A DNA stretch of 57,158 bases, taken from contig NZ_JACJSV010000023.1 in the NCBI RefSeq assembly GCF_014698335.1, positions 1-57,158 of the forward strand, given 5' to 3'. The translations under genes were made by a program, and so were the position numbers. Source of the DNA: Microcystis viridis FACHB-1342 (GTDB lineage: Bacteria > Cyanobacteriota > Cyanobacteriia > Cyanobacteriales > Microcystaceae). Shown piece after piece: positions 18,665-53,176 of the stretch. Below the pieces are notes generated by a model that was given only the letters and a program-made list of their open reading frames with translations, was not told the DNA's origin and ran no database searches. Every line of letters begins with the position of its first letter. Within the stretch, counting starts at the first letter, position 1.

Positions 18665-18679
18665 TGGTTTTGTAATCAC

Positions 18680-34972: not shown

Positions 34973-35560
34973 TTACTCTACAATTTCAATTTTTCTTGGG
35001 GAACCAACATCCTCAGACACAACTTCTACCGACTCTATTTGCTGCTTGAGCTTCAGTTTCAGTGCTTGGGTAATCGGTAAACCTTCAACTTCTTTGATTA
35101 AGTCTTCCTGAGCTTCCTGTTTACGACGATCTTTATAGATAGCGGCAAGAACCGCTTCAATTCCATAGTTCGTCAAGGCATCTCCCACAACAGTGGTTAG
35201 GCCAAGCAGTCCTAATCCGCCGAGAACGCCAAGGGGACCCCCTAAAGCTGCCAAAGCGAAGGCAATGGGATAAGTGGTAGCTCCCGAGGTGGATACCGTG
35301 ACCACGAGAATTACGCCTGGGAGTCCCAAAGAACCAATTCTCTTGGCTACTTCGTCTAAAGAAACCCCCCAGGATGCCAGTTTTTTGCTGATTTCACCCG
35401 GGGCAGCCTTTAGTTTTTTGCTGATTTCCTCCCAAGAAAATTCCGAAGCGGCAGCTTGTTCGTTGACATTCTGGGATGAAGATTCATCAGCGCCAGCCTG
35501 TTCGTTAACATTCTGGGATGAAGATTCATCAGCGCCAGCCTGTTCGTTAACTTCGTCCAT
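34973..35560 (-). CDS. Small glycine-rich membrane protein (copy B of three)
   Basis: A 195-residue protein. The first 40 residues are a tandem repeat (VNEQAGADESSSQN, about 2.5 units). Then comes an amphipathic block, KKLASWGVSLDEVAKRIGSLGLPG, and a hydrophobic Gly/Leu/Ala-rich region (residues 80-130, LGGPLGVLGGLGLLGLTTVVG). The end is YGIEAVLAAIYKDRRKQEAQ and EVEGLPITQALKLKLKQQ. It is closely related to 52697..53176 and more distantly to 16133..16600. It lies upstream of, and probably in operon with, the LamG-sulfatase gene (115 bases). The family is unrecognised; a membrane-anchoring or pore-like role is only a guess. Confidence 0.75.
   Translation of the reverse strand: MDEVNEQAGADESSSQNVNEQAGADESSSQNVNEQAAASEFSWEEISKKLKAAPGEISKKLASWGVSLDEVAKRIGSLGLPGVILVVTVSTSGATTYPIAFALAALGGPLGVLGGLGLLGLTTVVGDALTNYGIEAVLAAIYKDRRKQEAQEDLIKEVEGLPITQALKLKLKQQIESVEVVSEDVGSPRKIEIVE
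35469..35552 (-). repeat. 42-bp direct repeats inside the small membrane protein gene
   Basis: Two nearly identical in-frame 42-base units, plus a partial third, encode the N-terminal VNEQAGADESSSQN repeats. In-frame slippage would change the length of the hydrophilic N-terminus without breaking the gene. Confidence 0.85.
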
Positions 35561-37547: not shown

Positions 37548-38861
37548 ATGACTTTAACCATCGAACTTCCGAAAACCCAAACGCCGCAACGTTTACCCTT
37601 AAATCCTAACTATCCCCCCTTTCGCCAGTGGAAAGCAGGGGTAATCGCCGAAAAACTAGAAGAACAGCCAGTCTGTCTCTATGTTCATATCCCCTTTTGT
37701 ACTCAACGCTGTGCTTTTTGTTATTACAAAACCGTTGACCTAAAAGAGAGCCAAGTACAGGCCTATGTAGATACGCTTTGCCAAGAAATTAAACTCGTTT
37801 CCGAAAGATTCAATTTGAAAAACCGACGGATTCAGGCGGTTTATTTTGGCGGAGGAACTCCCACTACCTTAACCGGAAACCAGTTAGTCCAAGTTGTCGA
37901 GAATTTACGCGAAAATTTCTCCTACTTTGAAGAAAAGAAACAGTTTTCCGTAGAAGCAGAACCCTTGAGTGTTTCCCCATCAAAAATGAGGGTACTCAAA
38001 GAATTAGGGGTAAATCGCCTAAGTTTAGGTGTTCAATCTTTTAATGATCAAATCATCAAACTGAGTGGCAGAGGTCATGACGAAAAACAAGCTTATCGAG
38101 CGATCGATGTAGCTCAAAAAGCTGGCGAGGGGCAATGGTCAATTAATATTGACCTATTGAGTGGACTAGCCGGAGAAACTGTAGAAACTTGGCAAGAAAG
38201 CTTAGAATGCGCTCTGAAAACCGGAGTAGAAAGCATCACCGTTTATAAAATGGAAGCTTTTGCCAATACCCAAGTATTTGATCAAGGGGTTCGCCAAGAA
38301 ATTATAGAATTGCCATCAGCAGAGCTAGAAATGCAGTTTATGCAGTTGGCCATGGAGCGCTTTGCCCAAGCAAATTATAATCCTTGGAGTCATTTTACCT
38401 ATGTTAAAAATGACAGCGATTTGGCCACAAGTATCAAACAATATCGCAGTGAATACATTTTTAATATTTGGCACGGAATGGAGTTTTATGGTCTGGGAGT
38501 CTCTGCTTTTGGCTGTTTAGGGGATTCTCTGTTACAAAATACTAGCGATATGGAAAAATATGCGACCCTTCTGGCCCAAGGAGAACTACCCTTATCTCGC
38601 GGTTATAAGCTGACTAGCTTGGACCAGATGGTGCGGGAAGTTTTACTAGGAATCAAGACATTACGTTTTGATTTAATTGCATTTCAGCAAAGACATGGGT
38701 TTAAATTACAATCCCTTTGCGCGGAAACTTTGTCCACACTTGAAAGAGATGGTTTTGTCACCGTATCTACCCAAGAAATTGAATTAACCGCTAAGGGGAT
38801 TCTTTATGGGGACTATGTGGGCGAAACTTTAGCAGCATCTCTCAAAAAACTCAAAAGTTAG
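37548..38861 (+). CDS. HemW/HemN-like radical SAM enzyme, possibly an aryl C-methyltransferase
   Basis: A 437-residue radical SAM protein. The 4Fe-4S motif is CX3CX2C at Cys51, Cys55 and Cys58 (HIPFCTQRCAFCYYK); the SAM loop is VYFGGGTPTTL. The C-terminal part resembles the HemN_C winged domain (VREVLLGIKTLRFDL). HemN-like proteins in biosynthetic clusters include class C radical SAM methyltransferases and cyclopropanases, besides true HemW and coproporphyrinogen dehydrogenases. Directly after the ACP gene, it may methylate the ACP-bound aromatic ring at C3 (inference). True heme function is unlikely from the context. Confidence 0.88.
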   Translation: MTLTIELPKTQTPQRLPLNPNYPPFRQWKAGVIAEKLEEQPVCLYVHIPFCTQRCAFCYYKTVDLKESQVQAYVDTLCQEIKLVSERFNLKNRRIQAVYFGGGTPTTLTGNQLVQVVENLRENFSYFEEKKQFSVEAEPLSVSPSKMRVLKELGVNRLSLGVQSFNDQIIKLSGRGHDEKQAYRAIDVAQKAGEGQWSINIDLLSGLAGETVETWQESLECALKTGVESITVYKMEAFANTQVFDQGVRQEIIELPSAELEMQFMQLAMERFAQANYNPWSHFTYVKNDSDLATSIKQYRSEYIFNIWHGMEFYGLGVSAFGCLGDSLLQNTSDMEKYATLLAQGELPLSRGYKLTSLDQMVREVLLGIKTLRFDLIAFQQRHGFKLQSLCAETLSTLERDGFVTVSTQEIELTAKGILYGDYVGETLAASLKKLKS

Positions 38862-38965: not shown

Positions 38966-38995
38966 TTGTTCATTGTTGAAAATGACCCAGATGAG

Positions 38996-40318
38996 ATGTG
39001 CAGAACAAACAGTTTAGCTCAGGTCCCACTTAACGATTTACCCGTGCTTACTGCTACGGAAATTGAGGAGCAAGTAGCCGCTATTTATGGTCTTCTCGAA
39101 AATTGCTCGCTTCCCCAGGGACAACTAGAGCAACTGACCGAAAAACTGGCAGAATTTCAAAGCCAATGGCAAGCGGTTTTTGCCAAATTTGGACAGAACT
39201 ATCGAGGAGAATTAGCCTATCGAGATTTAATCGGGGAATTTAGCCGAAAAATTGCACCATTATTACAAAAATGGCTATCTTCATCGGTGGCAATCCAAGA
39301 AATAATTAATCCTATTACTTCCATGCTTTCAACCCTATCGCCTTCCCCACCCCTGAGGGGAAAAGATGGCGAGATGCTTTCTCTGATGCAGAGAAAGCGT
39401 TTGTTAATTGTCAAAAAAAAGCACCAATCTCAGCTAGAAGTAGAAGATAAAAACCTCTCAATCCCAGAGTTTGAAAAGCCGATTTTTATTGTTTCTGCAC
39501 CCAGAGCAGGAAGTAGTTTATTGTTTGAAACCCTGGCTAAATTCCCCGATTTATGGACGATTGGAGATGAAAGTCACGAAATTATCGAAGGAATACCCGC
39601 TTTACATCCAGCTGCACGCAATTTTAGCTCTAACCGCTTGGATGAAGGCGATGCTACCCCAGAAATTAGCGCAACTCTAAGAAAAGGTTTTACCCAACAA
39701 TTACAAAATCGGGAGGAGGTAAAATATTTAAACATTGCTGAAAATGAGCGTCCTAACAAAATTCGTTTTTTAGAAAAAACGCCCAAAAACGCCCTAAGAG
39801 TTCCTTTCCTAATGGCTTTATTTCCCGATGCTCTCTTTATCTATCTTTATCGAGATGCTAGGGAAAATATTAGTAGTTTATTAGAAGGATGGCGATCGCA
39901 ACGTTTTATTAGCTATCAACCCTTACCCGGTTGGGAGCATAGTCAGTGGAGTTTTCTGCTCGTACCCGGTTGGTCATCTCTCCAGGAATCTTCTCTGGTA
40001 GAAATTGCCGCCTATCAGTGGAAAATGGCTAATTCCTACCTAATAGAAGACCTTCAGTCCCTCAACCCTTCCTGTTGGTGTTCGGTCAATTATCGCGATT
40101 TAATTGAACATCCCGGGCAAACCATTAATCATATTGCCCAATTTGCCCAACTGCATCAAGACAAACAAATCGAGCAAATTCTCTCTCAACCCTTACCCAT
40201 CGCTCAAAGAACCCTATCTGCTCCTAGACAAGAAAAATGGCGCAAACATGAACGGGAATTGGCCACAGTGTTACCAGACTTAGAAAACATAATTGATTTT
40301 TTGCAGTATCTTAAGTAG
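38996..40318 (+). CDS. Sulfotransferase with N-terminal extension (440 residues)
   Basis: Residues 1-150 from ATG 38996 are helical and unassigned; a TTG at 38966 could also start it. The sulfotransferase domain begins at KPIFIVSAPRAGSSLLFETL, the 5'-phosphosulfate loop binding PAPS. The 3'-phosphate loop is ALFIYLYRDARENISSLLEGW. It would transfer sulfate from PAPS to a hydroxyl of the product. It lies between two repeats in the middle arm, before the NRPS gene. Two other sulfotransferases (48529..49416, 51297..52010) belong to distinct branches, so the three are not recent duplicates and probably act at different positions. Confidence 0.87.
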   Translation: MCRTNSLAQVPLNDLPVLTATEIEEQVAAIYGLLENCSLPQGQLEQLTEKLAEFQSQWQAVFAKFGQNYRGELAYRDLIGEFSRKIAPLLQKWLSSSVAIQEIINPITSMLSTLSPSPPLRGKDGEMLSLMQRKRLLIVKKKHQSQLEVEDKNLSIPEFEKPIFIVSAPRAGSSLLFETLAKFPDLWTIGDESHEIIEGIPALHPAARNFSSNRLDEGDATPEISATLRKGFTQQLQNREEVKYLNIAENERPNKIRFLEKTPKNALRVPFLMALFPDALFIYLYRDARENISSLLEGWRSQRFISYQPLPGWEHSQWSFLLVPGWSSLQESSLVEIAAYQWKMANSYLIEDLQSLNPSCWCSVNYRDLIEHPGQTINHIAQFAQLHQDKQIEQILSQPLPIAQRTLSAPRQEKWRKHERELATVLPDLENIIDFLQYLK

Positions 40319-40459: not shown

Positions 40460-43400
40460 ATGATTGAAGTACAATTACAGCCAATTGAGGAGAATTTTAG
40501 GGGAGAAAATTATTCTTATTCCACCACAATTCATCAATTATTTGAAACCCAGGTGGAGAAGACCCCTAATCAGATTGCGGTAAGTTTTGAAGATTGCTGC
40601 TTAACCTATAAGCAGTTAAATGACCGCGCCAACCAAATCGCCCATTATTTAATTGAATTAGGAGTAAAACCAGAACAATTAATAGGAATCTGTGTTGAGC
40701 GTTCCCTAGAAATGATCATCGGGGTTTTAGGTGTTCTCAAAGCGGGAGGGGGTTATGTACCCCTGGATCCTGCTTACCCCCAAGAACGGCTAAAATTCAT
40801 CCTAGAAGATGCCGGTATATCTATCTTATTGACACAGGAAAAACCCCTTATAAATTTACCCCTTGACCAGATAAAAGTAATTTTTCTCAATAAAGATCAG
40901 TCCCTAGTTCAACAAAGTCAAGAAAACCCTAAAACTACTGTAAACTCGGACAACTTAACCTATATTCTCTATACTTCTGGCTCCACCGGGCTACCTAAGG
41001 GGGTTTTAATTACTCATAAAGGAGTAGTTAATTTAGTTCAAACAGAAATTAAACTATTTAATTTAGATACCTCAAGTCGTGTTCTGCAATTTGCTTCCTT
41101 AAATTTTGATGCTTCCGTTTCGGAAATCTTCACCGCTATTTCTTCGGGAGCGCAACTTTGTCTAGGAAATTCTAACTCCTTACTTCCGGGGGATAACTTG
41201 CTTAATTTTCTGCAAAAAAAAGCTATTACCCATGCACAAATTCCCCCATCAGTATTAGCCGTCCTCCCTCAAGCACCCTTAAAACACCTACAGGTATTAA
41301 TTGTCGGCGGAGAAGCTTGTCCCCCTGCCTTGATGGCCCAGTGGTCAGTGGGAAGACGCTTTTTTAATGCCTATGGACCCACCGAGGCCACCGTTGATGC
41401 CACCATAGCAGAATGTAGCCCTGATAGTCCCTTAACCATCGGTCGTCCTCTTGCCAATACGCAAGCTTATATCCTCGACCAGTCTCTCAAAAAAGTGGCT
41501 GTGGGGGTTGCGGGAGAATTACATATTGGGGGAGTAGGTTTAGCTAGGGGATATCTCAATCGTCCCGAATTAACTGCGGCAAAATTTATTCCCCATCCTT
41601 TTGATGATAATCCATCGGCGAAGTTATACAAAACCGGCGATTTAGCCCGTTATCTTCCCGATGGTAATATTGAATGGTTAGGGCGTATAGACTTTCAAGT
41701 TAAAATTCGTGGTTTAAGAATTGAATTAGGGGAAATTGAAGGCATCTTAAACGAAAATACCGCCATTCACCAAGCGGTAGTCATTGTCCGTCAAGAGCAG
41801 TTAAATGATCCTCAATTAATCGCTTATGCTGTTATTAACCCCACCGTTAAAGTCGAGCAAGTCCTCGCTCAATGGCGCGACTATCTCAAAGAAAAGTTAC
41901 CCCATTATATGATTCCCCGGGCATTAGTAATTTTAGAAAAGATGCCTTTGACCCCCAATGATAAAGTTGACCGTGTAGCTTTAGCTAAATTGCCTCTAAA
42001 TTATGACACTTCTCGTCTGGTTACACCGCCACGAAACCCAGAGGAAGAACTATTAACCGCAATTTGGGCGGAGGTTTTGGAATTAGAAAAAGTAGGAATT
42101 GATGAGAACTTTTTTGAATTGGGGGGACATTCCCTCAAAGTTATTGCCCTCTGTAAGAGGCTAGAGTCTTATTTTGAAAAAAAGTTTGCTGTAGAAACTA
42201 TTCTTGATGCCGCAACGGTGGCTGAATTTGCCGAATATTTACGGAAAAATCATCCAGAACTAATCGAAAAAATTGACAAGATAAAATTTAATGAGGTAAT
42301 CAATCCCTTAATCATAGACGAGGATTTTATTGCCGATTCTTCCCTGGAGATTGATTCCTTATCTGGCTGTCCTTATTTTCCCTTATCTTTGACTCAACAG
42401 AAAAGATGGTCCTATGAAAAATCCAACACAGTCATCCATTTTTCAGGTAATTTTAGACGACACTACCTTAAAGGAGACCTCAATTTAGCAGTTTTAACAG
42501 CCAGCTTGAATGAGATTATCTATCGCCATCAAATATTGCGTGTCACCTTTCGAGAAGTCAACGGTTCCCCCGTTCAGTTAATTAACCCCTACACCGAAAA
42601 AAACCTACCCATAATTGATTTACAACCCTGGCCAGAGAACCAGAAAAGTGAGGAATTAGCAAGATTATTACAAGAGATTATTAATCAACCCTTCGACTTG
42701 ATTAATGGCCCCTTAATCAGACTGATATTAATTCGTTTGGATGAGAAGGAGCACATTCTCCTCACTCACATCCACGATATTATTATAGACAATTCATCAT
42801 TGACGCTCTTTTTTAAAGAATTGGAGCTACTTTATCAGGCTTTTGTCTTAGGTGATTCCTCCCCTTTACCTCCCTTACCTATCCAGTATGTTGATTATGT
42901 TCAATGGCAACTAAAATCCTTTAGTTCTCAACTAATTGAGCCGAAAATTAACCACTATAAACGTATTTTAGAAGCGGGAGAGTCACCAACCTTAAAAATT
43001 CCCCCACACCTGATTTCGCCGTCTAAATCTAGTGATAAATTATCCGATTCATCGGTTTCAAGTCTAGGGACTAATTTTGATTTTGAAATTCCTAGGGATT
43101 TCACAGAGAAATTAAACATTCTCTGTCAAGAGCAAAGAATCACTTTATTTATGACTGCACTAACAGCCTTTGCTGTTTTACTCTATAGCTATAGTGGCTG
43201 TGAAGATATTATCATCCGCGCTCCCCGTGACGCTCGTAATCATCCACACCTGAAGCCTCTAATCGGTTTAATTAGTAATATAATGTTGCTCCGAGTTAAT
43301 TTAAGTGGTAATCCTACTGTTAAAGAGTTACTAACGCAAGTGAGAAGGGTAGTATTAGAAGCTTTAGAGTATCAAGATGTTCCCTTTGAGCATTTAGCCA

Positions 43401-43738
43401 AAGTCATCAAACCAGAATATCGCCTTGATAATTCTAGTTTTAAAGCAGTTATTACGGTTTTGTCAGAGTCCCCCGAAGAAGAATTGAAACTACCTGGGTT
43501 AGAGGTGACATCTTGGGAAATGGAAGAGTTTGAAGTTAGGCCCGACTTAGAGTTAATACTCTGGGAAAATAAAACTTCCCCAAAACCCTCTCTTAAGGGT
43601 TGGTGGCAATATAAAAAAGATTATTTTGAGCTTGATTCAATGACTCAAATTAACCGAGATTTCATGCAGATATGGTCGGAAATTGTTACGAATCCTCATC
43701 AGCCAGTTACTATCTTCCAAAATCTTAAAAATGTATAG
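40460..43738 (+). CDS. NRPS module A-PCP-C
   Basis: A 1092-residue single-module synthetase with no N-methyltransferase. The A domain (about 20-520) has LTYILYTSGSTGLPKGVLIT, NAYGPTEATVDATIAE, YKTGDLARYLPDG, KIRGLRIELGEIEGI and the A10 lysine in PLTPNDKVDRVAL. The PCP is DENFFELGGHSLKVIALC near residue 555. The rest is a condensation-like domain. Pocket residues ending G-A-V-D suggest a basic amino acid, perhaps arginine (inference). The HHxxxDG motif reads HDIIIDN, so the catalytic second histidine is Asp. There is no thioesterase or reductase domain. It is the last gene of the middle arm, convergent with the right arm. Confidence 0.93.
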   Translation: MIEVQLQPIEENFRGENYSYSTTIHQLFETQVEKTPNQIAVSFEDCCLTYKQLNDRANQIAHYLIELGVKPEQLIGICVERSLEMIIGVLGVLKAGGGYVPLDPAYPQERLKFILEDAGISILLTQEKPLINLPLDQIKVIFLNKDQSLVQQSQENPKTTVNSDNLTYILYTSGSTGLPKGVLITHKGVVNLVQTEIKLFNLDTSSRVLQFASLNFDASVSEIFTAISSGAQLCLGNSNSLLPGDNLLNFLQKKAITHAQIPPSVLAVLPQAPLKHLQVLIVGGEACPPALMAQWSVGRRFFNAYGPTEATVDATIAECSPDSPLTIGRPLANTQAYILDQSLKKVAVGVAGELHIGGVGLARGYLNRPELTAAKFIPHPFDDNPSAKLYKTGDLARYLPDGNIEWLGRIDFQVKIRGLRIELGEIEGILNENTAIHQAVVIVRQEQLNDPQLIAYAVINPTVKVEQVLAQWRDYLKEKLPHYMIPRALVILEKMPLTPNDKVDRVALAKLPLNYDTSRLVTPPRNPEEELLTAIWAEVLELEKVGIDENFFELGGHSLKVIALCKRLESYFEKKFAVETILDAATVAEFAEYLRKNHPELIEKIDKIKFNEVINPLIIDEDFIADSSLEIDSLSGCPYFPLSLTQQKRWSYEKSNTVIHFSGNFRRHYLKGDLNLAVLTASLNEIIYRHQILRVTFREVNGSPVQLINPYTEKNLPIIDLQPWPENQKSEELARLLQEIINQPFDLINGPLIRLILIRLDEKEHILLTHIHDIIIDNSSLTLFFKELELLYQAFVLGDSSPLPPLPIQYVDYVQWQLKSFSSQLIEPKINHYKRILEAGESPTLKIPPHLISPSKSSDKLSDSSVSSLGTNFDFEIPRDFTEKLNILCQEQRITLFMTALTAFAVLLYSYSGCEDIIIRAPRDARNHPHLKPLIGLISNIMLLRVNLSGNPTVKELLTQVRRVVLEALEYQDVPFEHLAKVIKPEYRLDNSSFKAVITVLSESPEEELKLPGLEVTSWEMEEFEVRPDLELILWENKTSPKPSLKGWWQYKKDYFELDSMTQINRDFMQIWSEIVTNPHQPVTIFQNLKNV

Positions 43739-43757: not shown

Positions 43758-44972
43758 CTATAAATTATGGTCTAGAATAGGGGGAAAATAGCCAACTTTC
43801 TGAAAGTAAGAAAAATATAAACTGAGCAATTTTTCATCAATAACGGGACAGGAGATAGATAGCTCTGTTAATTCTATCAATGTTCGAGTTGCGTCAAATT
43901 CTAGCTTATCAGGGGAAAATAGTTTTGACAGTTTCAAAAGCAGTAATAAAGATGAATATAGTGTATTCTTGGGAGACTGGGACAATTGATATTTTAATTC
44001 GGCATAAAAATTATCATAATCAACTTTTTCTAAGGAATAGCCTAAAAGTTGAAGAGAATTAAAGAAAGTTTCCCAGGAAATTAGCTGAGAATTAATTAAA
44101 TGAAATACTTTGCCAGCATGGTTTTTTTGCTGGGATAAACCGACAATTGCCCCACTGACATAATCAACGGGAACGATATCTATTTGTGTGTTTAAATCGG
44201 GGAATTTTTTTAATTGAATACAACCCTTTAGCAAAATACACAGGAAATCTTGGAAATTACCGTTAATCCCCGTTTTACTATTCCCGATGATTCTTGAAGG
44301 ACGATAAATACAAGCAGGTAATCCTCTTTTTTGTGCGACCATCATTAATTGTTCTGCCACCCATTTACTTTGGCGATAACCTCCTTGCAGATTAACAAAA
44401 TTAGGGCTATCCATTTCAGTGATTCTGCCAATTTCCTCCTGATTATCACCGAGAAAAACCCCAAGAGTCGAGACAAAATGAACGGGTTTAGTTTGCTCCC
44501 TACTAGCTAACCTTAGCACTTCCTGCGTCCCCAAGACATTTACCGGTTTTAAGGTGGAGTAGGGACGAGCAGAGTTAACCCAAGCTCCATTGTGATAAAT
44601 AATATCAATTATTACTGCTAATTCATTAAATGCTAGTTGAGAAAGACCGAATAAATGTTTCCCTAAATCTCCAACAATAGGAATAATACGAGAATTAAAA
44701 CCATCTTGCCAAAGAGAATAAAACTCTAAGTTTTTTTGAAGACGATTTTTACCCTCTTCTATATTAGAACAGCGAACTAAACAATAAATATCTGCGCTGG
44801 TTTTCTGGAGAAGTTCTTCGAGTAAATAAGCACCAAGAAAACCAGTTGCTCCTGTCAATAAGATAGCTTTTGGCTCTAGTACATTCTTGGAAAGCGATTG
44901 CTCAAATTGAATCGAGGAATCCAAATTTACTTCCGCTTTCAGGTCTAACTGTTGAGTCACAGGTTTAGTCAT
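43758..44972 (-). CDS. Stand-alone thioester reductase-like protein, copy 2
   Basis: A 404-residue paralog of 21060..22262. The nucleotide loop is AILLTGATGFLGAYLLEELL and the catalytic Tyr-Lys pair is in GYRQSKWVAEQLM, followed by CIYRPSRIIGNSKTG. The whole protein aligns with copy 1, with strong identity in the first 270 residues. It would reduce a carrier-bound acyl thioester to aldehyde or alcohol using NAD(P)H. It is the last gene of the right arm, eight bases after paralog D. Its stop is only 20 bases from the NRPS stop on the other strand. One copy may free the aryl aldehyde and the other may release the peptide. Confidence 0.87.
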   Translation of the reverse strand: MTKPVTQQLDLKAEVNLDSSIQFEQSLSKNVLEPKAILLTGATGFLGAYLLEELLQKTSADIYCLVRCSNIEEGKNRLQKNLEFYSLWQDGFNSRIIPIVGDLGKHLFGLSQLAFNELAVIIDIIYHNGAWVNSARPYSTLKPVNVLGTQEVLRLASREQTKPVHFVSTLGVFLGDNQEEIGRITEMDSPNFVNLQGGYRQSKWVAEQLMMVAQKRGLPACIYRPSRIIGNSKTGINGNFQDFLCILLKGCIQLKKFPDLNTQIDIVPVDYVSGAIVGLSQQKNHAGKVFHLINSQLISWETFFNSLQLLGYSLEKVDYDNFYAELKYQLSQSPKNTLYSSLLLLLKLSKLFSPDKLEFDATRTLIELTELSISCPVIDEKLLSLYFSYFQKVGYFPPILDHNL

Positions 44973-44979
44973 GTGTTTT

Positions 44980-45789
44980 TTAAATCCCTTCTAGAGCAAC
45001 CTGATGAATAAGTTCGGCATCGGAGAGATAGGGAAATCTTTGCCAAAAACGAGACCATGTTACTAAATATATCTCTTGTTCTTCTTGAGGAAATCGCTTA
45101 AGTTTCTCCTCAAATAGATTTTTATAACGGTCTATTTCTGCTTTTAAATAATGATGCGCTTCCTCTCCATACAATTTCTGAAACATCCAGTAGGTATTGT
45201 AATTACCAGCTGCCATATCCTTTTTGTAGGAAATAAGATCATCATTAAATTCTATTAAAACTTCCCTAGGTTCCATCAGGTCAAAAATTTCACTTCTGTA
45301 GGGTTTATCTGAAATCTGAACTAAAGCAGAATGTACAACCCTAAAATCACAAGACCGTAATTCAGAAGCGCGAATCACGTCTTCATGAGTTACTTTTTCA
45401 GAAGTGACTAGCTTATTTTCTAGTTTAACAAATTCTGTCACCTTTTCTAGCTTATTGACGATTGTATTATGTTCTAAGTTGTGTTCTTTTAAAAAAGACT
45501 GAATGATTCTCTTTCTAGAATCCCAGGGAGAAGTTTGAGTTAATAGTGAACCATCTTTTTGATTACTCTCTACTTCCATATCGGCTTCATAGATCACAGC
45601 TTCAATAAATAGGAGTAATGGATAATAAACAAAAAATTCATCATCACAAATATTATAAATTGGACAATATATTTTGGAAAAAGGCTTTAAAAATGCAGTA
45701 GCTTTATAGATACTATAATAGGAAATATAAGGCATTTGACTAACGGTTTTTTTTCTTTCAATCATCCCAGGGGACATTGGCGGGTTCAT
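44980..45789 (-). CDS. Terpene-synthase-like paralog D (subtype 2)
   Basis: A 269-residue all-helical protein, last of four tandem paralogs, with a good ribosome binding site (AAGGAG). A first acidic motif is in EAVIYEADMEVESN. The second, FNDDLISYKKDMAAGNYNTY, matches the pattern NDxxSxxxE...G...N of class I terpene synthases. RASELRS lies between. It then runs MFQKLYGEEAHHYLKAEIDR, identical in all four. It is closest to paralog B (YLSxAEL at the end). It may be a prenyltransferase or cyclase using prenyl diphosphates, perhaps acting on arginine guanidines; this is inference from motif and context. Confidence 0.7.
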   Translation of the reverse strand: MNPPMSPGMIERKKTVSQMPYISYYSIYKATAFLKPFSKIYCPIYNICDDEFFVYYPLLLFIEAVIYEADMEVESNQKDGSLLTQTSPWDSRKRIIQSFLKEHNLEHNTIVNKLEKVTEFVKLENKLVTSEKVTHEDVIRASELRSCDFRVVHSALVQISDKPYRSEIFDLMEPREVLIEFNDDLISYKKDMAAGNYNTYWMFQKLYGEEAHHYLKAEIDRYKNLFEEKLKRFPQEEQEIYLVTWSRFWQRFPYLSDAELIHQVALEGI

Positions 45790-45851
45790 TTTAGTTTCTC
45801 CTTTTTGAATTTTTAAACAAATAAGTTAGTTTGTACAGTCAAATAACAGGT

Positions 45852-46655
45852 TTAAACCCCTTCTAAAACAGCTTGACGAAGAAGTTCACCACTAGAGAAA
45901 TAGGTAAATACATCTTGCCATAAACGAGACCATTTTGCTGAATAAACTTCTTGTTCTTGTTCAGATAATCCTTTCAGGGTTGCCTCAAATAGATTACTGT
46001 AACGGTCTATTTCTGCTTTTAAATAATGGTGTGCTTCCTCTCCATACAATTTCTGAAACATCCAGTAGGTGTTATAGTTACCAGCTGCTCTATCCTCTTG
46101 ATAGGAACGAAAATCATCATGAAATTCTAGCAAAATGTTGATCGGTGACATAAGCTCAAAAACTTCAGTTTTGTAAGGTTTACCTAGTATTGAAATTAAA
46201 GTAAAGTAAAGCATATTAATATCGGAAGACTGCAATTCAGAAGCACGAATCACCTCTTGATGAGTTATTGTTTCAGAAGTCACTAACTGACTGCCAAGGT
46301 GAAAAAATTCTCCTAAGTTCTCCATAGCATTTAGGATAGTAGGATGTTCTAAGTTAAATTCCTTTAAAAAAGATTGAATAATTTTCTTTCTAGCATCCCA
46401 TGATAAGTTATTCTGTTGATTGCTTCCTAGATCAATATTGACTTCGTGGATTAAAGATTCAATCAATGCTAAAACTGGATAACATAAAAGAAACTCATCA
46501 AGAGAAACGTCATCAATCATATTATATTGCTTAAAAATAGATTTAAACATAAAAGCAGTTTTGTATAGACTATGATAAGAGATGTAACGGGTTTGACTGC
46601 TTGGTTGTTTGCTTTTAAGACTCTCATACAAAATCTCTAAGTCCTGTATATTCAT
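45852..46655 (-). CDS. Terpene-synthase-like paralog C (subtype 1)
   Basis: About 267 residues from ATG 46655, chosen because AGGAG precedes it; an upstream TTG at 46685 is less likely. The second motif is FHDDFRSYQEDRAAGNYNTY and the first is ESLIHEVNIDLGSN, weaker in acidic residues than in its sisters (Asn and Gly replace two). RASELQSSD lies between. The C-terminus (EVYSAKWSRLW and LLRQAVLEGV) nearly matches paralog A. The upstream neighbour is paralog B; the 60-base gap to paralog D resembles the A-B gap. If the first motif binds magnesium, this copy may be weakened or have a different role. Confidence 0.68.
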   Translation of the reverse strand: MNIQDLEILYESLKSKQPSSQTRYISYHSLYKTAFMFKSIFKQYNMIDDVSLDEFLLCYPVLALIESLIHEVNIDLGSNQQNNLSWDARKKIIQSFLKEFNLEHPTILNAMENLGEFFHLGSQLVTSETITHQEVIRASELQSSDINMLYFTLISILGKPYKTEVFELMSPINILLEFHDDFRSYQEDRAAGNYNTYWMFQKLYGEEAHHYLKAEIDRYSNLFEATLKGLSEQEQEVYSAKWSRLWQDVFTYFSSGELLRQAVLEGV

Positions 46656-46732
46656 TTTTGATGCTCCTAATTTTGAATTTTCCAATGAATAGTGATGCAG
46701 ATTTTAATAATAGCAGGCTATGGGATGGCTAA

Positions 46733-47554
46733 TTATTCATTATTTTCGACCCCTTCCAGAGCTACTTGACGAATAAGTTCAGCACTAGAGAGATAAGAAT
46801 ATCTTTTCCAGAAACGAGACCATTTTTTTGTATATCTTTCTTGTTCTTCTTCAGGAAATAGCTTGAGTTTCTCTTCAAATAGATTTTTATAACGGTCTAT
46901 TTCTGCTTTTAAATAATGGTGTGCTTCTTCTCCATACAATTTCTGAAACATCCAGTAAGTATTGTAATTACCTGCTGCCACATCCCTTTTATAGGAACAA
47001 AAATCATCCTGAAATTCACTCAAGATTTCTGTCGGTGAGAGAATTTCAAAAATTTCCGCTCTGTAGGATTTACCTGACATCTGAACTAGAATAGTGTGGA
47101 TAATCCTCAAATCAGATGAACGCAATTCGGAAGCACGGATTACATCCTCTAATGTTATTTTTTCAGAAGCTACTAGCTGACTTTCTAATTCAATGTATTC
47201 ACCTAGATTCTCCATGTGATTTAAAATCATAGGGTTTTCTAAATCAAATTCTTTTAAAAAAGATTGAATGATTATTTTTTTGGAATTCCATAGAGAACGT
47301 TGAGTTAATGGGGTGCTATCCTTGGGATTGCTCTCTAACTCCATATCAGTTTCATAGATCAGAGATTCCACAAGTGCTAAGAGTGGAGAAAATTCAAAAA
47401 ACTCATCATCAGAAATATTATAAATCGGACAATATAGCCTTAAAGAAACGTGGATTACAGAAATAGCTTTGAATAGACTATGATAGGAAATGTAAGGGAT
47501 TCGACTAATAGTTTGTTTGCTCTTAAGCCGCTCAATGGATATCAATGGGGTCAT
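46733..47554 (-). CDS. Terpene-synthase-like paralog B (subtype 2)
   Basis: About 273 residues from ATG 47554, which follows AAGGAG; a TTG at 47587 is an alternative. The first motif is VESLIYETDMELESN and the second FQDDFCSYKRDVAAGNYNTY. The conserved MFQKLYGEEAHHYLKAEIDR block follows, then KNLFEEKLKLFPEEEQERY, as in paralog D. It ends with four extra residues (ENNE). There is no signal peptide or membrane span. It is probably a soluble isoprenoid-binding enzyme; direct evidence of activity is lacking. Confidence 0.7.
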   Translation of the reverse strand: MTPLISIERLKSKQTISRIPYISYHSLFKAISVIHVSLRLYCPIYNISDDEFFEFSPLLALVESLIYETDMELESNPKDSTPLTQRSLWNSKKIIIQSFLKEFDLENPMILNHMENLGEYIELESQLVASEKITLEDVIRASELRSSDLRIIHTILVQMSGKSYRAEIFEILSPTEILSEFQDDFCSYKRDVAAGNYNTYWMFQKLYGEEAHHYLKAEIDRYKNLFEEKLKLFPEEEQERYTKKWSRFWKRYSYLSSAELIRQVALEGVENNE

Positions 47555-47615
47555 TTGGTTTTCTCCTTGTTTTGAATTTTTAAGCAAATAAGTTTATGCG
47601 GTCAAATAATCAGGT

Positions 47616-48428
47616 TTAAACCCCTTCTAAAACAGCTTGACGAAGAAGTTCAGCACTAGAGAAATAGGGAAATACATTTTGCCATAAACGAGACCATTTT
47701 GCTGAATAAACTTCTTGTTCTTGTTCAGATAATTGTTCAAGAGTTGCTTCAAATAGCTTACTGTAACGGTCTATTTCTGCTTTTAAATAATGGTGTGCTT
47801 CCTCTCCATACAATTTCTGAAACATCCAGTAGGTATTATAATTACCGGCTGCCCTATCCTCTTGATAGGAACGAAAATCATCATGAAATTCTAGCAGAAT
47901 ATGTATAGGTGACATAATCTCAAAAATTTCATCTCTATAAGGTTTACCTGACATAGCAATCAAGGTACAGTGGAGAATTAACTCGTCAGAAGACCGCAAT
48001 TCAGAAGCACGAATTACATCTTCTAATGTGATTTTTTCAGAGGTGACTAGCTGACTTTCTAATTCAAAATACTGACCCAAATTCTCTATGTGCTTTAAGA
48101 TTGTAGGATCTTCTAAATCAAATTCTTTTAAAAGAGATCGAATGATGATTTTTTTAGAATCCCACAGAGAAGACTGACTTGATGGGTTGCTATCCTTTTG
48201 ATTGCTTTCGATCTCCGCATCAGTTTCATAGACAAGGTATTCAATAAATGCTAAAAGGGGATAATATTCAAAAAACTCATCTAGTGAAATATGATAAATC
48301 GGGCAATAATGCTTGAATATGAATTTGAGAATGGGAGTAGCTTTGTATATACTACGATAGGAAATATAATGATTGCGACTGATGGGGTGTTTGCTTTTAA
48401 ATCTCTCAAGATTTGCTTGTAAGTCCAT
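47616..48428 (-). CDS. Terpene-synthase-like paralog A (subtype 1)
   Basis: A 270-residue protein, first of the four. Residues 67-76 are YETDAEIESN and residues 183-191 are DDFRSYQED, followed by AAGNYNTYWMF. The spacing of about 115 residues between the two acidic motifs is shorter than the roughly 140 residues usual in bacterial terpene cyclases. The protein is all helical. The N-terminal YISYRSIYKA is shared by all four. Alternative folds, such as heme-oxygenase-like enzymes, cannot be excluded. It lies about 100 bases downstream of a sulfotransferase gene, in the right-arm operon. Confidence 0.7.
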   Translation of the reverse strand: MDLQANLERFKSKHPISRNHYISYRSIYKATPILKFIFKHYCPIYHISLDEFFEYYPLLAFIEYLVYETDAEIESNQKDSNPSSQSSLWDSKKIIIRSLLKEFDLEDPTILKHIENLGQYFELESQLVTSEKITLEDVIRASELRSSDELILHCTLIAMSGKPYRDEIFEIMSPIHILLEFHDDFRSYQEDRAAGNYNTYWMFQKLYGEEAHHYLKAEIDRYSKLFEATLEQLSEQEQEVYSAKWSRLWQNVFPYFSSAELLRQAVLEGV

Positions 48429-48528: not shown

Positions 48529-49416
48529 TCAAGACATTTCATAACCCGCCTCTTGACATAATGGTTGACAATAGGTGTTTAATTTTTCGATATCTGCCGG
48601 CTCTATTGAGTCTTTCCATCCGTCTATTTTACCCATTCTAAATGTTCTAGCAGAAGGGTTATAAATCTCCCCCAACTGAGAAGCAATAGTTTCACTAAAA
48701 GGAATATCCAAATGGTGGCAAATTTTTTCCATCGTCTCCCTTTGTTTTTCCGACTTGCCACCTCCCTGTTCTCCCACCAGATCCTCAAAACGGATAAATA
48801 AACAATTTTGCTCTTGAGACCAAGCTAACATAGAACGGAACACTTCAGCAAAATTTCTGATTTCTACTCCCGCTTTTGCCCCATAGCCTCCCACTAAAAT
48901 AAAATCTAATCTTTGGCTAGGAGACATGGACTTAAAATCCTCTTCTAGAAAGTGTCTTGCTGGCATTTTTCCCGTATCTAAAACAAAGGGAATTGAGGAA
49001 GCTATAACAGCACGAGGATCACGAATAATGAAGATATGCTGATAATTCAATTCCTGAAGAATTGGGGTTAACAGAGGTGTCCAAGGAATATGACCTAAAA
49101 TGTATTGCTTTTGGGCAATCAGAGTTAACCAATGTCGAACAATCGCCAAATCTACATAGTAGGGGGTTAAGGCCCCTATGCTAATCTGTTGTTGGCTAAA
49201 TTGAGTTTGATGCTCGATTCTTTTTTTAACTTCTCGATAGTTAAAAAATAGAGGCACTTCTTGAATTTCTTGATCCTCAAAATGCTCTCTATAGCCCAGA
49301 ATTTCAACGGACTTAGCCAACAAATGAGTGCCACTTTTAGGCAAAGAATTAATTAGTAATCGCTTGGCGGGTAACTCGGTATAGGACATCGCTTTTGAGT
49401 TAAAGGTATTGATCAT
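48529..49416 (-). CDS. PAPS-dependent sulfotransferase (Sulfotransfer_1 type)
   Basis: A 295-residue enzyme. The 5'-phosphosulfate loop is RLLINSLPKSGTHLLAKSV and the 3'-phosphate loop is HIFIIRDPRAVIASSIPFVL. Later blocks are LFIRFEDLVGEQGGG and ARTFRMGKIDGWKDS, the latter resembling the C-terminal FRKGxxGDWK of cytosolic sulfotransferases. It would sulfate a phenol or alcohol. ATG 49416 gives the full frame; ATG 49389 is possible. It is 12 bases downstream of the ThDP enzyme gene, so co-transcribed with it. Confidence 0.9.
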   Translation of the reverse strand: MINTFNSKAMSYTELPAKRLLINSLPKSGTHLLAKSVEILGYREHFEDQEIQEVPLFFNYREVKKRIEHQTQFSQQQISIGALTPYYVDLAIVRHWLTLIAQKQYILGHIPWTPLLTPILQELNYQHIFIIRDPRAVIASSIPFVLDTGKMPARHFLEEDFKSMSPSQRLDFILVGGYGAKAGVEIRNFAEVFRSMLAWSQEQNCLFIRFEDLVGEQGGGKSEKQRETMEKICHHLDIPFSETIASQLGEIYNPSARTFRMGKIDGWKDSIEPADIEKLNTYCQPLCQEAGYEMS

Positions 49417-49427
49417 TGTTCGTGGCT

Positions 49428-51236
49428 TTAAAACATTCCTATGGGGGGAACATATTCCGAATCAATTCGCACATCTAAGACGGTAGGTTTGCCATCCCGA
49501 TAAATTGCCTCATAATCTAATCCCTGCAAGTCTTGACTATTACGAATAATATAACCATTCGCTCCCATTCCTCGAGCAATTTGACTAAAATCTACTGACG
49601 GTAAAGCAAACTCTAGGGGTTCTACTCCCGTTTGAAGATGTCGGTGTTTAACCATACCAAAAGATTGATCATTAAGAATGATAAAAATAATCGGTAATTT
49701 TTCAGCAACAGCAACAGCAAGTTCGTTGCCGTGCATTAGGAAACATCCATCACCCGTCAGACAAACAACCGGGGTATTTTTTGCCCCCATAGCTGTTCCA
49801 ATCGCACTGCCAATTCCCCAACCCATGGGGGCAGTGGCCACAGCTAAACGGAAATTTTCCGGACGGGGTGGGAAGAAATAGTGAATTGTCCAAGCTAACC
49901 AATTACCTACATCCACTAAATAGCGGGTTTCTGGAGGCAAATGTTGTAGGAGTTCACCGATTAATTGCTGGGGTTTAACGGGGGAATTATCCTCTGAAAG
50001 TCGATAGCTATCCGGTTGTTTAACGGTAATTTGAGCGGGTTGATAAGGCGGGGAAATTTCAGGGAATAAGCTCGCTGATAACTCTGGTTTTAATTGTCCC
50101 CTTTGCCGAGTTTTCTGTAATCTTTTTAGTAATTCTGCCAAGGTGGTTTTGATTGTACCTTGAATGTGTAAACTGGCCATCGGAGAACTTTTAAAATAGT
50201 CCCTTGCGTGATGAATATGAACTATTTTTTTAGTTAACAATGCCTGATCCCAAGCCGAGGTTTCCCATTGCCCTAAGTTCATCCCAGCCGCTAAAATTAA
50301 AGCAACAGAATCATCGGTTAAAGCTTGACGAGCCGTTTGATGTCCAGCGAAACCAAAGACACCTTTTACTAAAGGATGATAAGGATTAACACAGGTTTTA
50401 CCACCTTGAGTTGTGACAATAGAAGCGTTAATTAATTCGGCTAATGCCATAATTTCTGGGGTGGCTTCCCTACAATCTTGACCAACCCAGATGGCGATGG
50501 TTTGACCTTGGTCTAAGATATTGTTTATGGTACTATCAAGCTCATCTAAGGCTTTTAAATCAACTAATGCAGCAGCTTGAGTCGTTACCTGGGGATAAGC
50601 AAGGGATGAGGGAGACTCAACCCGGAAAATATTCACAGGAATACTAAGATGAGCCGGTCCAAAAGGTGAATGTAAAACTGTTGTTAATGCCGCTGCCAAT
50701 TTTCTTTCTAATTGATTAGGGTGGGTAACGAGGGTATTATAACGGGTACAGTGCTTAAACATGGCCACTGTATCAATGGTATCAGGCGATGATTCTTGAA
50801 AGGCACTCCAGCTAAAATGAGGTAGGGCAGTTTGTGCGGTGATAACAAGTAGAGGTATCCCTTCAGCATAAGCTGAGGCTAATCCTGTAATGAAATTGGT
50901 GCTACCGGGTCCAGTTGTGCCGCAGCAAACCCCGATTTTTCCGGTTTCACGAGCATAACCATCAGCCATAAAAGCGGCGCCGGTTTCGTGACAAGTCAAA
51001 ACGGCACGAACCCCCCCGCGTCTTTCGCTGCGTGCTAAGGCTTCGTAGAAGGCACTATTATGTCCTCCCGGGATGCCAAAAACGTATTCTACCCCTAATT
51101 GCTCTAAATAATCGACAATTAGGTCACTCATATTTCTTGGCTGGATTTGTTCTGGCTCTGTCAAGGTAATGGGAGAAGAGGCTTGTGAAATCATTAGATT
51201 TTGTCTTGTCAATGGACTATTGTTAGAATATCTCAC
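49428..51236 (-). CDS. Thiamine diphosphate enzyme, acetolactate synthase/benzaldehyde lyase-like
   Basis: A 602-residue ThDP-dependent enzyme with the PYR, central and PP domains of the acetolactate synthase family. The catalytic Glu is Glu84 in TCHETGAAFMADGYAR. The ThDP motif runs from GDG at 495-497 to Asn522 (IILNDQSFG). Central-domain motif: VKGVFGFAGHQTARQAL. ATG 51194 (MISQASSP) may be the true start. No small regulatory subunit is nearby, so it is probably not the housekeeping enzyme. In context it could join an aromatic aldehyde to pyruvate with loss of CO2, giving an aryl acetyl carbinol. This is inference. Confidence 0.88.
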   Translation of the reverse strand: MRYSNNSPLTRQNLMISQASSPITLTEPEQIQPRNMSDLIVDYLEQLGVEYVFGIPGGHNSAFYEALARSERRGGVRAVLTCHETGAAFMADGYARETGKIGVCCGTTGPGSTNFITGLASAYAEGIPLLVITAQTALPHFSWSAFQESSPDTIDTVAMFKHCTRYNTLVTHPNQLERKLAAALTTVLHSPFGPAHLSIPVNIFRVESPSSLAYPQVTTQAAALVDLKALDELDSTINNILDQGQTIAIWVGQDCREATPEIMALAELINASIVTTQGGKTCVNPYHPLVKGVFGFAGHQTARQALTDDSVALILAAGMNLGQWETSAWDQALLTKKIVHIHHARDYFKSSPMASLHIQGTIKTTLAELLKRLQKTRQRGQLKPELSASLFPEISPPYQPAQITVKQPDSYRLSEDNSPVKPQQLIGELLQHLPPETRYLVDVGNWLAWTIHYFFPPRPENFRLAVATAPMGWGIGSAIGTAMGAKNTPVVCLTGDGCFLMHGNELAVAVAEKLPIIFIILNDQSFGMVKHRHLQTGVEPLEFALPSVDFSQIARGMGANGYIIRNSQDLQGLDYEAIYRDGKPTVLDVRIDSEYVPPIGMF

Positions 51237-51296: not shown

Positions 51297-52010
51297 TCAA
51301 TAACCCCCGGCAGCTGTGAGGAAAAATTTTTCCGATGCAATTTGGGATTGATAACTATCAAATGTGTAGCCAAATAGGGCGATGTCATCCTGAAAGTGTT
51401 TTTCTACTAATTTTCTGGTTCTGTTGTTGTAATATTCTCGATAATCACGATGTTTTGACTTGTTTAAACAGGGCAGAGAAGCTTTAATATTTAGCCTTTG
51501 ACAGACCAGATCAAAATCAGCTTCTAAAGTTTCATATCTACCAACAAAGTCAACTATTATTTTGCCTTCTAAGTCAGTAATAAGGTCTTTTTGTAGTTTA
51601 GTTGCTCCTTTGGGAAAGGGATTTTTGGTACTAATAACCCATTCCAAGTATTCTTCAAAACCGTCCAGAGATTTAACCAATTCATGTCTGACATGATCTT
51701 TCTCCTTAAGAATAAAATGATAATAGGATACCTGCCAATCCCAAGGATTTCTGACAAAAGAAAATTTATAAAAATTATTATATACTTCCTCTGACAGTTC
51801 TTTTTGCATATCTCTGGCTTTAGCGTGCCAAAGAGAGGATTCCCACATTTCATACAGGGGATTGATTTGCTCTCCTAACATTCTGGGAGGGCGATTAATT
51901 TTGAATTTTTCAGGTTGTTGTGCATAAGGTTCTAAGACTGCTTTAACGCTTGTCCCCGCAGCTTTCGTGACATGAAAAAAAATGAACTGATGACTGTAGG
52001 ATATTAACAT
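51297..52010 (-). CDS. PAPS-dependent sulfotransferase (Sulfotransfer_2 type)
   Basis: About 237 residues from ATG 52010; the frame extends to a TTG at 52088, but the upstream part has no conserved features. The 5'-phosphosulfate loop is HQFIFFHVTKAAGTSVKAVL, and the 3'-phosphate loop is SFVRNPWDWQVSYYHFIL. These match carbohydrate-type (HNK-1/chondroitin) sulfotransferases, a branch different from the other two in the window. It is the first gene of the right arm; the promoter should lie within 52011-52200. The substrate is unknown; a hydroxyl of the aryl-propanolamine unit is plausible. Confidence 0.87.
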   Translation of the reverse strand: MLISYSHQFIFFHVTKAAGTSVKAVLEPYAQQPEKFKINRPPRMLGEQINPLYEMWESSLWHAKARDMQKELSEEVYNNFYKFSFVRNPWDWQVSYYHFILKEKDHVRHELVKSLDGFEEYLEWVISTKNPFPKGATKLQKDLITDLEGKIIVDFVGRYETLEADFDLVCQRLNIKASLPCLNKSKHRDYREYYNNRTRKLVEKHFQDDIALFGYTFDSYQSQIASEKFFLTAAGGY

Positions 52011-52088
52011 TGATCTGGCGGTGTGATAACAATAGCTCTGCCCGAGATCGGTAGGCGTATCAATTTTAGTATAAATTGAACTTGACAA

Positions 52089-52696
52089 AAGAGACAGTAT
52101 CTAAAATGTCAGCTTGTCCATTCTGGCTGCCCTCTGGGAGATGCTCTACTACTGCTGATGCTCGTATTAAATTAAAAAAACTCTGGTTCTTCCGAACTTA
52201 CACTGTAGAAAATTCCCCAAGCTCCCTCTCTGTACAGCAATGCTCTAAAGTTGATAAATATCAATCTAACAAAAACTCAAAGCCTTGCTGTACAAGCTTT
52301 ACAAGCATGAGTTGTTAATAGTTTTGCATGACAGATTCGGTAGAGCCAAAACTCTATCCCTCAATTCAAACTTGACAGACTACTAGGGGTTAACCCGAAA
52401 ATGCACAGAAATGGCTATTTCCCTAAGAACTGAGGATTTTCTACAAGTTCTGTGAACAGTAAGACTGATGTAAGTACCTAAGCAAAATTAATTACACATA
52501 TCTAACCACCTCTTGCCTCCTGCCTCTTGCCCTTTGCCTATCTTCACTAGGAAATTAATTTTGCACGACTACTTAGAATGCTGCCAGGCATCTGATTGCT
52601 AGACAGCCGATTTGTATTCTTTTGCCTTACCATGGATTTTATATGACTGAAATCCCCACCAACCAATCCAACTTAGTGATTTTAGGAGTCTCATCA
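52089..52696. other. Intergenic region between right arm and small membrane protein
   Basis: About 600 bases. It should contain the promoter of the right arm (minus) and that of the downstream gene (plus). CCTCTTGCCTCCTGCCTCTTGCC near 52508-52530 is a short degenerate tandem repeat. An 80-codon frame at 52076-52318 has no family features and is probably chance. No RNA gene was seen. Confidence 0.45.
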
Positions 52697-53176
52697 ATGA
52701 CGGAAACTACTGAAACGGCCATTCCCAATGATTTTCTCGGAATTAATCCCACAGAAATCAACAAAAAACTTGTCTCCTGGGGAATTTCTCTGGATGAAGT
52801 TGTTCAAAAACTTGCTTCTCTGGGACTCCCTGGCATTATTTTCATTATTGCTGTTGCCGCATCCGGTGGTACTGCCTATCCGATGATTTACGCACTTTTT
52901 GGGTTAGGCGGTCCGCTGGGACTAATTGGTGGACTTGGGGTCTTAGGCCTCTCTACCATTATTGGCGACATTGTGACGGGTTATGGCATTGAGGCACTGC
53001 TTAAAACGGTCTATCTCAAACGTCGTGAAACAGAAACTCAAGAATATCTCATCAATGAGGTGGAAGGTTTACCAATTTCTCAAGTTCTAAAACTTAACCT
53101 GAAAAAGGCTATTGAAGTAGAAATTACTGCCGAAGAACCCATTGCTCCCAAAGAAGTCGAAATTGCTGAAGAGTAG
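52697..53176 (+). CDS. Small glycine-rich membrane protein (copy C of three)
   Basis: 159 residues from ATG 52697, selected because TTAGGAG lies eight bases before it; earlier TTG and ATG codons in frame (52622, 52643) lack this. It has KKLVSWGISLDEVVQKLASLG, then a hydrophobic Gly-rich region with GGPLGLIGGLGVLGLSTIIG, then YGIEALLKTVYLKRRETETQ and EVEGLPISQVLKLNLKK. This closely follows copy B (34973..35560) and lacks its N-terminal repeat. Unlike copies A and B it has no LamG enzyme next to it; its neighbours are a MITE and the microviridin precursor. Function unknown. Confidence 0.72.
   Translation: MTETTETAIPNDFLGINPTEINKKLVSWGISLDEVVQKLASLGLPGIIFIIAVAASGGTAYPMIYALFGLGGPLGLIGGLGVLGLSTIIGDIVTGYGIEALLKTVYLKRRETETQEYLINEVEGLPISQVLKLNLKKAIEVEITAEEPIAPKEVEIAEE

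Follow-up and report, generated by a model that had tools for sequence, protein, structure and literature searches.

Guanidine prenylation is, to our knowledge, rare, and the modification alters both the charge and the lipophilicity of arginine peptides. AgcF transfers a prenyl group to a guanidine nitrogen, and the ABBA prenyltransferases form a β-barrel of alternating ABBA elements. A different protein, Aer3/BslB of the aeruginosin and suomilide clusters, is reported as an agmatine N-prenyltransferase in those passages of PMC13122637 that cite Zhang, Ushimaru, Kanaida and Abe (JACS 2025). The available excerpts of PMC12105684 and PMC13010261 describe GroH as the proposed arginine hexaprenyltransferase of the gromomycin clusters, acting by guanidine prenylation; they state that homology models of GroH resemble terpene synthases and prenyltransferases and mention groD/groF/groH loci in cyanobacteria. 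The agd (aeruginoguanidine/microguanidine) cluster is given in a review as 34 kb in size and as present in 11 Microcystis strains.

The window (the whole stretch of DNA analysed, 57,158 nucleotides from the bloom-forming cyanobacterium Microcystis viridis FACHB-1342) contains four tandem minus-strand open reading frames at 44980–45789 (copy 1, 269 amino acids), 45852–46685 (copy 2), 46733–47587 (copy 3) and 47616–48428 (copy 4). For copies 2 and 3, internal ATG codons at about 46655 and 47554, respectively, are more probably the starts. The other three copies are 52, 63 and 58% identical to copy 1. All four frames are open, and DDxxSYxxDxAAGNYNTYWMFQKLYGEEAHHYLKAEIDRY is present in each, in copy 1 as NDDLISYKKDMAAGNYNTY, which bears out the four paralogs with a common second motif and the invariant block described in an earlier note. 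Synonymous change between the paralogues is low in the KLYGEE block, and its invariance can therefore be accounted for by gene conversion as well as by constraint. An acidic motif does lie upstream, but its assignment as ETDxExESN 'in most' copies was slightly generous, since the exact motif is found only in copies 3 and 4. Copy 1 has EADMEVESN, while copy 2 has a degenerate EVNIDLGSN that carries Asn70, Asp72 and Gly74. Copy 3 retains the acidic residues of both motifs.

The AF2 model of copy 1 (pLDDT 87.8) is all-helical and matches solved members of isoprenoid synthase class I, the best match in the VIA-align structure table being the diterpene cyclase BjKS. The fold comparison proposed in the earlier note thus points to this class and not to an unrelated fold. 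The conserved motif residues lie on helices 49–78 and 166–194 of the model, which has no strand of at least three residues and so does not fit an ABBA β-barrel. None of the four copies matches any Pfam or NCBIfam model, including the terpene synthase models at E ≤ 1, the cis-prenyltransferase model PF01255 (UPPS) and the trans-isoprenyl diphosphate synthase model PF00348; their second motif is DDxxSYxxD and not DDxxD. PF19086 has no match anywhere in the genome, and a PDB sequence search with profiles of the four copies and of the family returned nothing relevant. Using hhalign, the family profile was compared with cyanobacterial terpene synthases, phytoene and squalene synthases, and trans- and cis-prenyl synthases. 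The scores (12.9–16.8) do not rise above column shuffles, 21 of 60 of which reach the real score for the terpene synthases and 11 to 44 of 60 for the other five families; profile similarity to these synthases is not significant. The best local alignment, which is non-significant and was not counted as evidence of homology, sets motif 2 against the NSE motif found in a terpene synthase from cyanobacteria.

Phylum-wide profile searches recovered the family in seven of 386 genomes, all from the order of the window, with identical results for a narrow (four-copy) and a broad (27-member) profile. With one doubtful exception (G599, E = 2.2e-4), the matches have E-values of 7.6e-33 to 7.9e-145, which rules out chance as the origin of the likeness. 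In-frame TAG codons in several relatives are, where inspected, natural gene ends overrun by the profile. A tblastn search of plasmids with one family member gave no match. Among 27 diverse members, only Asp184, Tyr188, Asp191 and Asn198-Thr199-Tyr200 of the second motif are invariant. All four window copies carry DDxxSxxxD, close to the NDxxSxxxE pattern noted earlier and to the terpene synthase triad (N/D)Dxx(S/T)xxxE, but Asp183 and Ser187 vary across the family; the literal NSE match is thus a trait of the lineage and not of the family.

The window copies are 34–40% identical over their full length to proteins at the BslB position, which has the aeruginosin/suomilide NRPS on one side and the AerC/BslD Rieske oxygenase on the other (L016–L019, L048 and L049). 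Family relatives also lie near isoprenoid-supply and guanidine-making genes. In the window, references for the Rieske oxygenase, IDI-2, amidinotransferase, DXS, IspG, IspH, GGPPS and Pyr4 have no match at E ≤ 1e-3. The single IDI-2 of the genome is on another contig.

The surrounding NRPS cluster spans about 33 kb (18991–52088) with the borders chosen here, compared with the 34 kb of the agd cluster in the review. On the minus strand, an ABC transporter (18991–21003, ABC_membrane_2) is the probable border and is followed by a thioester reductase-like protein (21060–22262, NAD_binding_4), an O-methyltransferase (22280–23317) with a paralogue at 30178–31203, a class III aminotransferase (23606–24970) and an NRPS with domains A-MT-PCP-C according to the domain scan (24967–29472). 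Also on this strand are a cis-prenyltransferase (29420–30112, PF01255, E = 9.6e-64) and a chorismate lyase-like protein that is likely to supply 4-hydroxybenzoate (31258–31830, PF01947, with an NCBIfam chorismate lyase match below the cut-off). The plus strand encodes a stand-alone AMP-binding ligase (35799–37217), a radical SAM/HemN_C protein (37548–38861), a sulfotransferase (38966–40318, PF13469) and an NRPS for which the scan gives A-PCP-C (40460–43738). Minus-strand genes flank the array: a second thioester reductase (43758–44972, TIGR01746) adjoins copy 1 and a sulfotransferase (48529–49416, PF00685) adjoins copy 4. Beyond these are a TPP-dependent enzyme resembling acetolactate synthase/5-guanidino-2-oxopentanoate decarboxylase (49428–51236; below the cut-offs of the 25 families listed) and a further sulfotransferase (51297–52088, PF03567). 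The cis-prenyltransferase, one of two PF01255 genes of which the other is the housekeeping UPPS, is the likely maker of an isoprenyl diphosphate donor. It is real, as the earlier note says, but lies about 15 kb from the array.

We consider it very probable that the array codes for soluble Aer3/BslB-type guanidine N-prenyltransferases, because of the homology to proteins in that position, the predicted fold, the two acidic motifs and the location in an NRPS cluster that includes a cis-prenyltransferase. The suggestion of a guanidine prenyltransferase made from the DNA sequence is well supported by this fold and gene position and by the isoprenoid and guanidine genes near the relatives. Most probably, isoprenoid chains are put on the arginine guanidine in an aeruginoguanidine-type peptide. 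Glu63, Asp70 and Glu74 together with Asp184, Asp191 and Asn198 would bind Mg2+ together with the diphosphate group of an allylic isoprenyl donor, a longer donor presumably being supplied by the cluster cis-prenyltransferase. The allylic donor would ionize as in terpene synthases, and the allylic cation would be caught by a nitrogen of the arginine guanidine without cyclizing, which is expected to give the prenylated arginine of the aeruginoguanidines and microguanidines. Less firmly, copies 1, 3 and 4 might each be specialized for a chain length or a nitrogen position, whereas copy 2, judged from its motif 1 sequence, is possibly altered or inactive.

The same fold and its best match to BjKS could also speak for true class I terpene cyclases that close a prenyl or farnesyl chain into a ring, either as a free substrate or once it is attached to arginine, with transfer carried out by another enzyme. 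The NSE-like motif in all four copies, its non-significant alignment with the cyanobacterial NSE motif, and the GGPP synthase and Pyr4-like cyclase beside some relatives fit this view. We nevertheless regard it as improbable, and the cyclase alternative raised earlier is not favoured: relatives occupy the position of Aer3/BslB, a transferase according to the cited passages, Asp183 and Ser187 are not conserved, L163 and L167 possess a separate Pyr4-like cyclase, and a Pfam scan of 28 ORFs of the window (those from 14360 onwards) brought up no other N-prenyltransferase candidate. It is more improbable still that the cluster cis-prenyltransferase carries out the guanidine transfer, leaving the four proteins to bind, edit or gate substrates. 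Its gene is full-length in the same four of 12 Microcystis genomes as the array family and its catalytic loop reads PDGN instead of the MDGN of the housekeeping enzyme, but the PDB entries that it matches are synthases of neryl, Z-farnesyl (Z-FPP) and undecaprenyl diphosphate, and it has no match at E ≤ 1e-10 in 16 other family regions, where an Aer3-type protein is present.

Compatible with guanidine N-prenyl transfer by the array, and overlapping with it in probability, is the rather unlikely case that catalysis is confined to copy 4 and perhaps copy 1, the rest being paralogues without catalytic activity or by-products of recombination in the array. In each of three other Microcystis genomes there are just two copies, which group with copies 4 and 1 in the tree, and copy 2 has a degenerate motif 1 and a long branch. 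Against this stand the four open frames with motif 2 kept in all, and the acidic residues of both motifs in copy 3. Copy 4 is the conserved copy, with 91–92% identity to its counterparts in these genomes (G251, G355 and G390). Copy 1 reaches 75–76%, and copies 2 and 3 have no counterpart above 67 and 66.3%, respectively. The four side-by-side copies are fast-diverging. On the favoured reading, the array evolves by duplication and gene conversion, the C-terminal third being homogenized while the middle segment, including the first acidic motif, diverges.

The missing aeruginoguanidine prenyltransferase becomes testable as four defined genes, and the mosaic array offers a natural experiment on the evolution of donor and acceptor choice in a terpene synthase fold. 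A single family without a Pfam or NCBIfam match would join aeruginosins, suomilides, aeruginoguanidines and perhaps gromomycins and cybastacines. A family member together with an amidinotransferase, or with a GGPP synthase and a Pyr4-like cyclase, provides a search handle for further prenylguanidine products.

Compared with class I terpene synthases (BjKS, an ent-kaurene synthase, and bacterial sesquiterpene synthases), the array lacks a Pfam match and significant profile similarity, and the wider family departs from them in motif 2. The proposed reaction resembles that of AgcF, but the strand-free model separates the array from AgcF/LynF-type cyanobactin prenyltransferases. With GroH, known here by description in the excerpts, the array shares the arginine guanidine as proposed target, and L163 and L167 resemble the gromomycin clusters in combining family member(s) with GGPPS and a Pyr4-like cyclase; the C30 donor and cyclized product belong to the GroH pathway. 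The family is new in matching no Pfam or NCBIfam model, but by gene position it contains Aer3, reported in 2025, and perhaps GroH (PMC12105684, as excerpted). Tentatively, and at somewhat less than an even chance, Aer3, the agd array, GroH and the cyanobacterial members form one unrecognized guanidine-specific prenyltransferase family that reuses the terpene synthase ionization machinery to let a guanidine capture the cation, in Microcystis as a recombining cassette in which duplication and middle-segment swaps change the pairing of chain and guanidine nitrogen, with little change in most of the cluster. Relative to Aer3/BslB, there are four copies here instead of the one seen per cluster, neither IDI-2 nor a Rieske partner of the AerC type lies in the cluster, and the presumed acceptor is arginine instead of agmatine, possibly with longer donors made by the cis-prenyltransferase. 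The similar length, the invariant DxxxYxxD...NTYxxF residues, the nearly invariant E..D..E residues and the setting in an NRPS guanidine pathway are common to both.

The array comprises four tandem open reading frames on the minus strand, as the earlier note described and the ORF listing bears out: copies 1 (44980–45789), 2 (45852–46685), 3 (46733–47587) and 4 (47616–48428). It is flanked by a thioester reductase (43758–44972; TIGR01746) and a sulfotransferase (48529–49416; PF00685). In the alignment, copies 2, 3 and 4 are 52, 63 and 58% identical to copy 1, respectively. The NSE-like motif DDxxSYxxDxAAGNYNTY recognized in that note is indeed present in all four copies, as is KLYGEEAHHYLKAEIDR. 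The upstream acidic motif (ETDxExESN type), said to occur in most copies, is well preserved in three of them (1, 3 and 4), but is degenerate in copy 2, where N70, D72 and G74 replace Asp, Glu and Glu and the NSE-like motif is intact. Copy 2 may therefore no longer bind metal and is possibly a pseudo-enzyme. Searches of Pfam, NCBIfam and the PDB sequences gave nothing meaningful for any of the four.

In profile searches for this protein family, 18 of the 388 genomes searched in the order had a match (four of them Microcystis), as did 25 of the 217 searched in one taxonomic family (only partial in G769, G685 and G757) and seven of the 386 in a phylum sample. The match in genome G599 (E = 2e-4, 74 residues of a 541-residue open frame) is probably due to chance, and with it set aside the order and family searches leave 34 non-Microcystis genomes with a family member. 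Neighbourhoods of about 9–20 kb per member or member pair, from 16 of these 34 genomes picked for variety and not randomly, were scored uniformly by one script. An AerC-type Rieske oxygenase is found in six of the 16 loci (L016–L019, L048 and L049). The family member lies directly between an NRPS and the Rieske gene in L017, L019, L048 and L049, and because it is the sole ORF of at least 100 amino acids there, it is taken by gene position to be BslB/Aer3, the reported agmatine N-prenyltransferase of aeruginosin/suomilide clusters. This identity would explain the nearby IDI-2 as a supply of DMAPP. Isoprenoid-supply genes occur in nine loci: IDI-2 in L016, L017, L018 and L045, DXS with IspH in L044, DXS at the contig edge in L166, and DXS, IspG and IspH in L163, L167 and L168, the last with a truncated family member. 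In genomes G042 and G249 the sole IDI-2 above the family cut-off is at most 4 kb from the family member. SxtG- or AGAT-like arginine amidinotransferases are present in three loci (L043:3063–12725, L046:32–9929 and L047:9213–13857), with PUFA/PKS-like, NRPS or MFS-like genes near the Aer3-type genes; these loci may make undescribed prenylguanidine products. L165 has no Rieske oxygenase, isoprenoid-supply gene or arginine amidinotransferase. Support from the window itself is limited: none of the references for Rieske, IDI-2 or amidinotransferase proteins matched there, so that the argument from neighbours rests on the relatives.

It is highly probable that the copies are guanidine N-prenyltransferases. 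The earlier note had left the choice between guanidine prenyltransferases and cyclases; the neighbours of the relatives and the position of Aer3/BslB probably decide it for a prenyltransferase, and a cyclase is improbable. Most likely, Mg2+ held by Asp70/Glu74 and Asp184/Asp191/Asn198 of an active copy would bind an allylic isoprenyl diphosphate, which would then be ionized, and a guanidine nitrogen of arginine, either free or bound to an NRPS carrier, would attack C1. The cis-prenyltransferase of the cluster (29420–30112) would supply a cis chain.

The surrounding cluster, for which we drew limits at about 18991–52088, encodes two NRPS proteins, two thioester reductase-like proteins, three sulfotransferases, a sulfatase, a chorismate lyase-like protein, a free-standing ligase, a radical SAM protein, two O-methyltransferases, an aminotransferase, a TPP enzyme, an ABC transporter and the cis-prenyltransferase. 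We infer that it is the aeruginoguanidine/microguanidine (agd) cluster. The abstract of the defining agd paper (Pancrace, 2019) reportedly mentions farnesylated arginine. A review tabulates agd with a length of 34 kb and an occurrence in 11 Microcystis strains (PMC10304443), and according to another paper aeruginoguanidines 98-A to 98-C and microguanidine AL772 are N-prenylated (PMC4413215). The array was found in four of 12 Microcystis genomes, exactly those in which the cis-prenyltransferase, a second PF01255 gene, is full length; one further genome, G097, has it as two short fragments. Its PDB matches are neryl, Z-FPP and undecaprenyl synthases. Compared with the housekeeping enzyme, its catalytic loop reads PDGN rather than MDGN and internal gaps total eight residues. 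The sulfatase (32302–34857), which lies in a cluster rich in sulfotransferases, has a Laminin_G_3 domain; this domain is also fused to a T6SS Tle1-like phospholipase domain in a 675-residue protein (16652–18679) beyond the ABC transporter. Two mutually related small ORFs without a Pfam match (34973–35560 and 52622–53176) flank the cluster core and have more copies in relatives; they are possibly a mobile element or cluster-border repeat.

Three relatives in the named collection (match 75–76%) are two M. aeruginosa and one M. wesenbergii. Most other cluster proteins are 92–99% identical to their counterparts in the array-bearing Microcystis genomes G251, G355 and G390. Exceptions are ORF 34973–35560 (85.6% in G390), the sulfatase (counterpart in G355 only), the aminotransferase (23606–24970; no counterpart found in G355), the O-methyltransferase 30178–31203 (in two pieces in G251) and 51297–52088, absent from the G251 stretch, which ends there. 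Another locally diverging gene encodes the protein 6396–7490, 76% identical to its G251 counterpart versus 97–98% for its neighbours. These three genomes have two prenyltransferase copies each. Copy 4 is 91–92% and copy 1 75–76% identical to counterparts there, and nothing above 67% was found for copies 2 and 3. In the tree, copies 4 and 1 each group with their counterparts, copy 2 falls next to the group of copy 4, and copy 3 branches separately.

Segment comparison points to a mosaic. Copies 2 and 4 share 94–96% nucleotide identity in the C-terminal third and 67–73% before it, and copy 1 matches its counterparts at 90–98% at both ends and at only 69–79% in the middle, which contains the upstream acidic motif. 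Across the four window copies, the KLYGEE block has synonymous differences at 5–8 of 38–44 identical codons, versus 10–17 of 32–48 just upstream. The block, invariant in all four as had been claimed, thus reflects gene conversion at least in part. We infer that the array is a cassette whose recombination changes which donor or acceptor is used; a division of labour between the copies is a tentative reading, somewhat less probable than its opposite.

The array does not encode a new kind of enzyme, since such an enzyme was already described in 2025. What is new is the mosaic array of four copies, its placement in an agd-type cluster and the proposal to unite Aer3, agd and the gromomycin protein GroH. 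A literature search confined to open-licence papers, and hence a weak negative, found no text naming the agd prenyltransferase.

In the gromomycin papers (PMC12105684, PMC13010261), GroH is described as a hypothetical protein without which no gromomycin is made. It is proposed there to transfer a hexaprenyl chain onto the arginine guanidine, homology modelling gave structures like those of terpene synthases and prenyltransferases, and Rieske enzymes and the cyclase GroF act after it. A single sentence mentions groD, groF and groH homologues at cyanobacterial loci, and PMC12105684 names the cyanobacterial cybastacines as the sole similar guanidine terpenoids. At two loci from genomes of one family, L163:5276–16976 (G722) and L167:1012–10337 (G745), one or two Aer3-type proteins are encoded together with DXS, IspG, IspH, a CrtE-type GGPP synthase and a Pyr4-like transmembrane cyclase, and L163 also has a Rieske protein. 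The cybastacines are C25 sesterterpenes, whereas the synthase of both loci scores as a C20 enzyme, which counts against a simple link to them. From the likeness of this set (polyprenyl synthase, Pyr4-like cyclase, family member and, in L163, Rieske protein) to that of gromomycin, we propose that GroH may belong to the Aer3-type family and that both loci possibly make guanidine terpenoids akin to gromomycin or the cybastacines.
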